From Paludibacteraceae bacterium (GTDB taxonomy: Bacteria > Bacteroidota > Bacteroidia > Bacteroidales > Paludibacteraceae), in assembly GCA_017464025.1 (NCBI GenBank), contig JAFUEI010000034.1, forward strand, positions 1 through 58,791: a DNA stretch of 58,791 bases, given 5' to 3'. This document shows, one piece after another, positions 195 to 27,505 of this stretch (position 1 is the stretch's first letter; each line of letters starts with the position of its first letter). The notes under the pieces are model-generated. The model was given only the letters and a program-made list of their open reading frames with translations, had not been told where the DNA came from and searched no databases. A program made the position numbers and the translations under genes.

Positions 195-1484
195 ATGAAG
201 ATAGAACTGCATCAAATCAGCGTGCGCGAGTTGTGCGCAAGTTATCAGGACCTCAGTATTCAGGAGGAAGGCATCACCGGCTACGGCGGACGGCTCAACA
301 TACGCCCGAAGTATCAGCGTGAGTTCGTGTATGACGAGAAGAAACGCAATGCCGTGATGGACACCGTTTGGCAGGGCTTCCCGCTGAACGTGATGTACTG
401 GGTGCGAGTCGGGAACAAAGAACAAGGAGCAAAGAACAAGGACTCCAATGAGTCTTTGCTCTTTCGGCAAAGCGGTCTTTGTTCTAACAGCGTTAGCGGT
501 CAAATAGAGTACGAACTGCTTGACGGGCAGCAACGTACCATCTCCATCTGCTCGTTCATAGCAGGCGAGTACATGATGCTGTTCGATGGCAATCTGCTCG
601 GGTTCAATAATATGACCGAGGAGCAGCAGAACCGCATATTGGACTACCGCTTGCAGGTGTATATCTGCGAGGGAACGGACGAGGAGAAGTTGCGTTGGTT
701 CCAAACCATCAATATAGCGGGCGAGAAACTGACCGACCAGGAGATACGTAACGCCATCTATTCGGGCAGTTGGGTGACGCAGGCAAAGCGGCGCTTCTCC
801 AAGTCGGGCTGCGTAGCGTACAAGATTGGTTCCGACTTTATGTCGGGCTCGCCCATCCGGCAGGACTATTTCGAGACCGCGCTACGCTGGATAGTGGATT
901 ACAAAAAGAACAAAGAACAAGGAGCAAAGAACAAGGACTCCAATGAGTCTTTGCTCTTTCAGCAAAGTGGTCTTTGTTCCAACAGCGATAGCGGCCAATA
1001 TACCATCGAGCAGTATATGGCGCAACACCAGCACGATACGGATGCCGACGAACTGTGGCAGTACTTCCAGGACGTGATACACTGGACGGAGAAACTCTTC
1101 GGGCGCAGATACAAGAAAGAGATGAAAGGCGTGCAGTGGGGGCTGCTCTACAACCAATACCGCGACACGCCGCTCACCGCCACGGCTATCGGCGAGGAAG
1201 TGGCACGGCTGATGCGCGACTCAGATGTGCAACGGAAGTCGGGCATCTTCCACTATATCTTCGACCACGACATCCGGCACCTCGGCATCCGCGCTTTCGA
1301 CGACAATACCAAGCGCGAGGTCTATGAGCGGCAGGGCGGCGTGTGCCCTATTTGCGGCAAGCATTTCGAGATAGAGCTCATGGAAGCCGACCACGTGACG
1401 CCGTGGGTCGAGGGCGGGCGCACCGTGGCGGACAACTGCCAGATGCTCTGCCGCGACTGCAACAGACGCAAGAGCAGCAAATAG
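195..1484 (+). CDS. DUF262 and HNH domain endonuclease (GmrSD-like defence protein)
   Basis: Probable single-gene restriction/defence nuclease. The N-terminal DUF262 (GmrS, ParB/sulfiredoxin-like) domain spans roughly residues 1-350 and has the hallmark DGQQR motif near residue 109. The C-terminus is an HNH nuclease: CPIC at 384-387, the A-D-H catalytic core at 398-400, Asn414, and CRDC at 419-422. In the GmrSD family the DUF262 half binds NTP and the HNH half cuts modified DNA; that role is inferred from the family. The odd feature is that the DUF262 domain is interrupted twice by almost identical 30-residue hydrophilic segments (about residues 74-103 and 239-268), encoded by a 91-bp palindrome-like repeat, both read in the same frame. 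Without these segments the protein would be about 370 residues. Start is the first ATG after an AT-rich spacer. No partner gene is adjacent. Confidence 0.85.
   Translation: MKIELHQISVRELCASYQDLSIQEEGITGYGGRLNIRPKYQREFVYDEKKRNAVMDTVWQGFPLNVMYWVRVGNKEQGAKNKDSNESLLFRQSGLCSNSVSGQIEYELLDGQQRTISICSFIAGEYMMLFDGNLLGFNNMTEEQQNRILDYRLQVYICEGTDEEKLRWFQTINIAGEKLTDQEIRNAIYSGSWVTQAKRRFSKSGCVAYKIGSDFMSGSPIRQDYFETALRWIVDYKKNKEQGAKNKDSNESLLFQQSGLCSNSDSGQYTIEQYMAQHQHDTDADELWQYFQDVIHWTEKLFGRRYKKEMKGVQWGLLYNQYRDTPLTATAIGEEVARLMRDSDVQRKSGIFHYIFDHDIRHLGIRAFDDNTKREVYERQGGVCPICGKHFEIELMEADHVTPWVEGGRTVADNCQMLCRDCNRRKSSK
413..503 (+). repeat. In-frame palindromic coding repeat, copy 1
   Basis: A 91-nt segment nearly identical to the one at 908-998 (5 differences, the first 53 nt identical). 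It contains a direct repeat (AAAGAACAAGGA twice, 2 nt apart), outer inverted ends AACAAAGA/TCTTTGTT and an inner GACTC/GAGTC, so it can fold into an imperfect hairpin. It encodes about 30 polar residues (Asn, Lys, Ser, Gln rich) inside the DUF262 domain. It resembles the idea of Rickettsia palindromic elements that insert into reading frames. Confidence 0.8.
908..998 (+). repeat. In-frame palindromic coding repeat, copy 2
   Basis: Second copy of the 91-nt element, exactly 495 nt (165 codons) downstream of the first and in the same reading frame. The differences lie in the 3' third; two of the five change a residue (Arg to Gln, Val to Asp). No further copy was noticed by eye in the window. Confidence 0.8.
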
Positions 1485-27412: not shown

Positions 27413-27419
27413 GATTGTT

Positions 27420-27505
27420 TTGGTTATTGGGTTAATGGTTATTGGGTTATTGGGTTATTCGCTATTCACTATTAGCTATTAGCTATTCGCTACTAACTAT
27501 CCTCT
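27420..27505. repeat. Low-complexity tandem repeat upstream of the beta-helix gene
   Basis: Degenerate short units: GGTTATTG/GGGTTATT changing into CTATTAGCTATTCG, filling the spacer between the beta-helix start codon and its promoter. It lies within the expected mRNA leader, so unit changes could alter leader length. Confidence 0.6.

Follow-up and report, generated by a model that had tools for sequence, protein, structure and literature searches.

In the Coxiella 23S rRNA IVS, two to three GACAGAT heptamers and a degenerate one directly precede the start codon of the S23 ORF (PMC4990558), and a passage of that paper describes IVS functionality and origin as unclear and the S23-family proteins as being without known function. 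Rickettsia palindromic elements (RPEs) are treated in part of PMC3733652 as in-frame repeats in ORFs that likely encode functional proteins, and the same text places REPs inside genes of several species. Cyanobacterial STRRs, 7-bp units that are repeated in tandem and can fold into hairpins, are the subject of a passage of PMC2670836, and one of PMC4679880 reports that TAACTGA occurs as direct repeats in Beggiatoaceae, in most cases shortly before a start codon, and also in a few Bacteroidetes, Paludibacter included. In-frame palindromes, IVS/S23 in 23S rRNA and heptamer repeats are already known; joining them appears, judged by the excerpts of open-licence literature consulted, to be new here. 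In those excerpts we found neither a link between S23/IVP and heptamer arms outside rRNA nor comparable in-frame repeats in Bacteroidota.

Two 91-nt copies in a DUF262-HNH gene

The window, i.e., the whole 58,791-nt stretch of Paludibacteraceae DNA that was analysed, contains at 195..1484 (plus strand) a gene for a 429-aa protein with GmrSD_N (DUF262) and HNH domains, which Pfam placed at aa 36-189 and aa 384-428, respectively. The PADLOC REase_II profile (372 aa) matched this protein in three separate stretches with 404.9 bits in total, and a search against solved structures matched the HNH part only, leaving the DUF262 part without a structural match. One relative of this host gene was present in viral contigs (L248) and was left out of the comparisons.

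Two copies of a 91-nt element are read in frame within the gene, copy 1 at 413..503 (plus strand, aa 73-103) and copy 2 at 908..998 (plus strand, aa 238-268). They form a direct repeat of 95% identity (86/91) with a spacing of 495 nt, or 165 codons, in the same frame, in agreement with an earlier note on this DNA that had described two 91-nt segments, five differences apart and 165 codons from each other in one frame. The same note had placed both inside DUF262, which holds for copy 1 but not for copy 2, located between DUF262 and HNH. The copies differ at unit positions 54, 61, 73, 81, and 88, three of the five differences being synonymous. The first 53 nt are identical, so that the described contrast between identical 5′ and differing 3′ parts is borne out; the chance of all five differences falling within the last 38 nt was 0.011, for a boundary picked post hoc.

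Copy 1 consists of a heptamer arm at 413..445 (GAACAAA GAACAAG GAGCAAA GAACAAG GACTC), a 3-nt centre at 446..448, a second arm with a small hairpin unit at 449..485, and a terminal hairpin-type unit at 486..503 (AACAGCGTTAGCGGTCAA), all on the plus strand; the heptamer arm and second arm of copy 2 lie at 908..940 and 944..979 on the same strand. Inverted ends are present, as had been claimed for the segments, and so is the 12-bp direct repeat, AAAGAACAAGGA occurring at 417 and 431; the claim that the segments can fold is supported by minimum free energies of -29.5 and -30.1 kcal/mol for copies 1 and 2, with z values of -3.76 and -3.86 against 200 dinucleotide shuffles each. The net gain in length was +87 nt at site 1 (compared with L073) and +90 nt at site 2 (compared with L053), both divisible by three despite the 91-nt unit.

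S23 genes and their heptamer arms

Searching the own genome, a draft of 71 contigs and 89% completeness, with the 91-nt unit returned its two copies and four weaker matches, located in C24 (E 1.7e-7), C28 (0.001), and C37 (0.048 and 0.58), the last of which is probably due to chance. Between the matches at C24:862-894 and C24:1298-1334 lies a 126-aa ORF, a 23S rRNA IVP (S23) of PF05635 matched with 125.5 bits. The upstream arm of this element ends in ...GAACAAAGACTCAA directly before the S23 ATG, and its downstream arm, past the S23 stop, reads ...GAGTCCTTACTC.

Copy 1 is antisense to the S23 reading direction of C24: its heptamer arm is the reverse complement of the C24 downstream arm (29/33 identical) and its second arm that of the upstream arm (33/37), and the 3-nt centre, at which the alignment ends, would stand where C24 has the S23 ORF. 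The corresponding identities of reverse-complemented copy 2 were 29/33 and 32/36. In a scoring of the copies against arms from 60 S23 loci, C24 was the best for both, with 54 (29+25) for copy 1 and 53 for copy 2, compared with 36 and 34 for the next-best locus and means of 17.6 (SD 5.5) and 17.3 (SD 4.8) for the other 59. Three loci had been left out of the arm and flank comparisons, two with an S23 ORF of <90 aa (L156 and L184) and one that gave no tblastn match (L157). The two arms of C24 itself paired with a score of 13, below the control maximum of 15. Because both arms match and only 3 nt replace the ORF, the window copies are, by sequence criteria, ORF-less relatives of the C24 S23 element.

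Compared with the S23/IVS type of element, both copies fold, having the inverted repeats expected round an ORF or its remnant; the S23-family ORF inside is absent, 3 nt taking its place, and the copies sit within a protein gene and not in 23S rRNA. The family as a whole resembles the Coxiella IVS, as described in a passage of PMC4990558, in its S23-family ORF, flanking inverted repeats, heptamers abutting the S23 start, and patchy presence; unlike the 23S rRNA IVSs, the elements studied here lie between or within protein genes, and the window copies have no ORF. The copies share with MITEs the lack of genes and the inverted ends. We consider that the window segments are probably ORF-less, MITE-like copies or relics of a heptamer-armed S23/IVP element.

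The flanks of S23 genes at large were then compared. PF05635 was detected (E 0.001) in 97 of 121 genus genomes, with up to 10 matches each, and in 157 of 198 Bacteroidota genomes, with up to 16. The flank sample comprised 31 genus and 29 phylum genes, nearly all best-scoring and with no random draw. A lag of 7 was the best period in 38/62 genus and 32/58 phylum S23 flanks versus 8/80 flanks of 40 window genes and 14/96 intergenic segments used as controls, and a lag of 8 was the best in 15/58 phylum flanks. Alignment of each upstream flank with the reverse-complemented downstream flank gave own-pair means of 18.6 (genus, n = 31) and 16.9 (phylum, n = 29), the baselines being 10.1 and 10.5 for cross-locus pairs and 8.8 for control genes (maximum 15, n = 40). 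The own pair exceeded the control maximum at 18/31 genus and 17/29 phylum loci and the 95th percentile of its cross-locus pairs at 16 and 18 loci, respectively, and it exceeded every cross-locus pair at only 7 and 6. The arm sequence differs from one S23 locus to another, and S23 genes with known neighbours adjoin protein genes. These data showed that many S23 four-helix-bundle ORFs are directly flanked by arms composed of small hairpins and a 7-nt unit repeated in tandem, often in inverted orientation to each other.

Elsewhere in the window, a GGTTATT/GCTATTA-type heptamer array was seen at 27416-27501, just upstream of a minus-strand ATG, and no good inverted partner was found nearby.

Heptamer arrays and small palindromes might instead arise in place, by slippage or template switching, and be tolerated as nearly frame-neutral, S23 playing no part in their spread. 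We consider such local expansion unlikely for the family, since two composite 91-nt units identical at 86/91 positions in one gene need copying rather than independent slippage, both arms of a single S23 element are matched by the units in the correct order, and a 7-nt period is much commoner in S23 flanks than in other intergenic DNA. In its favour are heptamer arrays of other sequence that are free of S23 (window 27416-27501 and L237 1400-1485), and the tract counts and the superoxide dismutase loop considered below.

A further ten S23 loci were sampled from 19 plasmid records, nine of them cyanobacterial and one from Gemmatirosa. The heptamer arrays round the cyanobacterial genes may be STRRs. 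Lag 7 was the best period on both sides in 7/10 loci; six of these were strongly inverted (27-34), and the arrays of L249 were direct. At L250, L254, and L258, lag 7 on both sides was not found. The own-pair inverted mean was 23.5 versus 11.8 for cross-locus pairs. The passage on STRRs in PMC2670836 names no S23, whereas 7-nt arrays bracket S23 here in 7/9 cyanobacterial plasmid loci. The neighbours were cas6/cas4 twice, cas10/cmr3 once, and nrdB/nrdA once among the ten loci. Three cyanobacterial plasmid S23 genes lie between cas genes, two with 7-nt arrays (L249 and L253) and one with a lag of 8 (L254). A figure legend on CRISPR association scores in PMC10910872 names ‘23S rRNA IVP’, and S23 located between cas genes may explain the association named there.

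Insertion sites and protein-coding tracts

The host protein was searched against 178 genus genomes, 89 of which, own included, matched at E 1e-20 or better, and the 30 best loci of these 89 genomes, the window's own among them, were compared (L072 lacks site 1). The earlier note had proposed a check on DUF262-HNH homologues, and among these 30 best loci the window element was indeed missing from the readable relatives, with 0/28 at site 1 and 0/29 at site 2. At site 1, where the window has 36 aa, a loop of 7-13 aa was found in 24/28 relatives and other sequence of 27-37 aa in 4/28 (L052 to L055). At site 2, where the window has 40 aa, 27/29 relatives have a 10-aa loop, the exceptions being L052 (30 aa) and L054 (18 aa), of different sequence.

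Each insert of the relatives was compared with arms from 60 S23 elements, and 20 shuffled versions of it served as the control. The site 1 insert of L053, from a second species, scored 50 (best shuffle 34) and reads (AAAGTCA)(AAAGTCG)...CTAATTAG...GGTCTTTCGACT, an architecture identical to that of the window element but built on another heptamer. The site 1 insert of L055 scored 41 (best shuffle 30), and that of L052 was marginal at 34 (best shuffle 32). No S23-arm match was obtained for L052 site 2 (25, best shuffle 31) or L054 site 1 (21, best shuffle 31), both of which are GC-rich palindromes that fold into strong hairpins (-35.6 and -44.7 kcal/mol). The different inserts across L052 to L055 indicated, at the level of sequence comparison, that two loops of one host gene took in different repeats in several species.

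Three of these inserts have features of their own. L055 carries at site 1 an in-frame 15-nt tandem repeat of the AGTACCAAGGGACTA type, about six units long, in the same loop as copy 1. The GC-rich palindromes of L052 (site 2) and L054 (site 1, about 1711-1790) likewise stand in frame in the DUF262-HNH loops, that of L054 reading GGAACGCGGATGTCCCCGTCCGC...GCGGACGCGGATGTCCGCGCTCC.

The earlier note had also offered a device that diversifies the defence protein, which could be DGR-like or work by cassette conversion. Such a device would fit the variation of the loops, with other inserts at site 1 in four relatives and a longer site 2 in two, but similar tracts occur in housekeeping genes and as hydrophobic N-termini, and RVT_1 was not found in the genome, so that we regard it as very improbable and do not retain it. 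A reverse transcriptase was likewise rejected as the copying agent, with 0 RVT_1 matches in the 89% complete genome.

Further copies of the unit, which the earlier note had suggested looking for, were found as related tracts within and between genes in the own genome and across the genus. Matches with an E value of 0.001 or below were obtained in 58 of 101 genomes of the genus, own included, with up to 14 per genome, a figure that comes from the real query alone. A pattern search of the own genome gave no clear excess, with 15 matches versus 13 for the reversed pattern, a control that also matches such arrays. The exact right-arm pattern occurred in 44 stretches of named genomes: 14 from Paludibacteraceae, 20 from other Bacteroidales, 4 from one bin labelled Prevotellaceae, 5 from Flavobacterium/Flavobacteriaceae, and 1 from Pedobacter.

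One conserved stretch that contains the right-arm pattern together with a GACCATTGCATTG unit recurs, in an unchanged context, in four Flavobacterium-type loci (L088, L100, L112, and L122), an indication that some copies are old and vertically inherited. A search of six loci against Rfam gave a single match, a sub-threshold Flavo-1 at L100 2270-2337 (34.8 bits, gathering 42). This match lies about 0.9 kb from the heptamer element.

Over 98 genomes, the number of tracts was weakly correlated with that of S23 genes (Spearman 0.27, p 0.008; genomes without a listed S23 count and those above G099 were left out). Tracts were present in 10/20 genomes without detected S23, a count that favours local expansion, and in 48/78 with S23 (Fisher p 0.45). 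The relics may therefore outlive their source or spread without S23.

A whole S23 element was found at the junction of two methylmalonyl-CoA mutase genes (mutA-mutB); 62 of 101 genomes gave matches, and their 30 best loci were compared. Three of the 30 carry the element (own, L189, and L195), 26 are empty with a spacer of 5-28 nt, and one (L197) is unreadable. In L195, the element at this junction is built on another heptamer.

Of 98 tracts examined in 76 loci, 69 lie within a spanning ORF of at least 100 aa. Some of the spanning ORFs, e.g., those of L034 and L098, are probably not genes, and the rows are partly dependent: L037/L093 and L027/L119 look like the same places, and UvrA (L090 and L099) and LpxD (L029 and L033) were each counted in two species. 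Ten tract-host proteins were scanned with Pfam, and nine were matched (L105 had none), identifying UvrA, LpxD, MiaB, alanine racemase, a TsaD-family protein that we read as TsaB, superoxide dismutase (SOD), two S9 peptidases, and methylmalonyl-CoA mutase. The tract lies within the matched domain in LpxD, MiaB, alanine racemase, the TsaD-family protein, the mutase, and an own-genome NUDIX protein. Compared with solved structures, the tract falls at a 7-residue gap in UvrA and at a gap of 6 plus 5 residues in MiaB, and a 4-residue gap lies beside it in SOD. SOD was rejected as a clean insert, the length of its loop being nearly constant across 30 genus loci, own included; it is a case of sequence replacement within a loop. 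That this loop turns repeat-like at nearly constant length, here and apparently in other genomes, speaks for local expansion, and in-place slippage stays a real rival, above all for SOD-like loops. The SOD surface loop (L218 to L247) varies in sequence by species, and several of its versions look repeat-derived (KELTNERTNELTIM and TIEQSSIINHQLPII).

The coding behaviour of the arrays is consistent with their presence in genes. Because the 7-nt unit is coprime to the codon, three units (21 nt) of a uniform array encode one heptapeptide whichever of the three frames is read, and mixed arrays such as those of the window encode three similar, not identical, peptides per strand. Arrays of GAACAAA and GAACAAG are stop-free in all six frames, with one strand hydrophilic (EQRTKNK) and the other hydrophobic (FVLCSLF). 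Inserts would be tolerated in genes because a heptamer array leaves every reading frame open. A hydrophobic peptide was encoded by 17/21 tracts near the N terminus versus 5/17 interior tracts (Fisher p 0.0026; ORFs of at least 150 aa, 19 more tracts classed as ‘other’, rows partly dependent), a tendency that follows from one stop-free strand reading hydrophobic and the other hydrophilic. In L028, for example, a tract supplies a signal-peptide-like N terminus (MRQYRYIITVLLVLCSLFFVPAKA); signal peptides were judged by eye and hydropathy.

Modes of spread and relation to known repeats

With palindromic repeats read in frame in unrelated genes, the family behaves in the manner of Rickettsia elements, and the comparison drawn in the earlier note was apt as a way of working. 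The likeness to RPEs, palindromic repeats in frame within ORFs, is one of description; the present family differs in its lineage, in having an identified ORF-bearing relative, and in arms that are heptamer arrays. Like MITEs, the copies are gene-less, with inverted arms and ends in common with a larger element of the same genome. Unlike the case of MITEs, that larger element carries S23 and no recognised transposase, and the arms vary by locus. No clear target-site duplication was found by eye at the host-gene and mutA-mutB junctions, where the spacers are too short or diverged. The TAACTGA repeats of Beggiatoaceae are, in contrast, a single fixed heptamer, and the text of PMC4679880 mentions neither S23 nor a helix bundle.

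The mobile, protein-compatible repeat family that the earlier note had envisaged is upheld as dispersed, protein-compatible, and palindromic; movement itself was not observed, and we infer mobility from presence/absence patterns between genomes. S23 elements would spread by copying, with S23 acting directly or together with a host enzyme. Copied elements would lose the S23 ORF, and within genes the copies would persist only if their net length is divisible by three, the survivors being confined to loops or N-terminal leaders. If the 23S rRNA IVSs are a guide, the arms may fold in RNA and become RNase III targets. We know of no catalytic site in S23, and S23 is not, to our knowledge, a transposase. 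The varying arm sequence is unusual for transposase-bound ends and counts against the reading as copies of an S23 element.

REP/REPIN-type repeats that a RAYT (Y1) transposase mobilises offer another source of in-gene palindromes. According to a passage of PMC3733652, REPs occur within genes, and those of the GTAG type often give flanking ORFs TAG stops; many S23 elements seem, by eye, to start with TAG at the stop of the upstream gene, and the genome has one borderline Y1_Tnp gene (23.6 bits, cut-off 23). GTAG and CGTC are, however, absent from both strands of both copies, no element flanks the Y1 gene within 3.2 kb (best match 16 nt, E 0.03), and the gene between the matching arms is S23 and not RAYT. 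We find this origin improbable and favour derivation from a heptamer-armed S23 element.

On a wider scale, we tentatively propose, with slightly more doubt than belief, that S23/IVP is the core of one mobile-element class in Bacteroidota, cyanobacteria, and 23S rRNA IVSs, with a locus-specific pair of 7-nt-repeat arms as its signature, and that its ORF-less relics gave rise to many unexplained heptamer arrays, STRRs included, and to new protein loops and leaders. If S23 is routinely bracketed by heptamers and has ORF-less in-gene copies, its mobility becomes testable. A common cause would then be possible for the 7-nt repeats of cyanobacteria, of Beggiatoaceae, and of the Coxiella IVS, and there would be a measurable route from selfish DNA to protein sequence.

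As a minor observation, the one Y1-transposase-like gene found in the own genome (L259 1291-2466, contig C28) contains an in-frame KEQ-like stretch, ARQEQKAQNEQTQEQNKARG.
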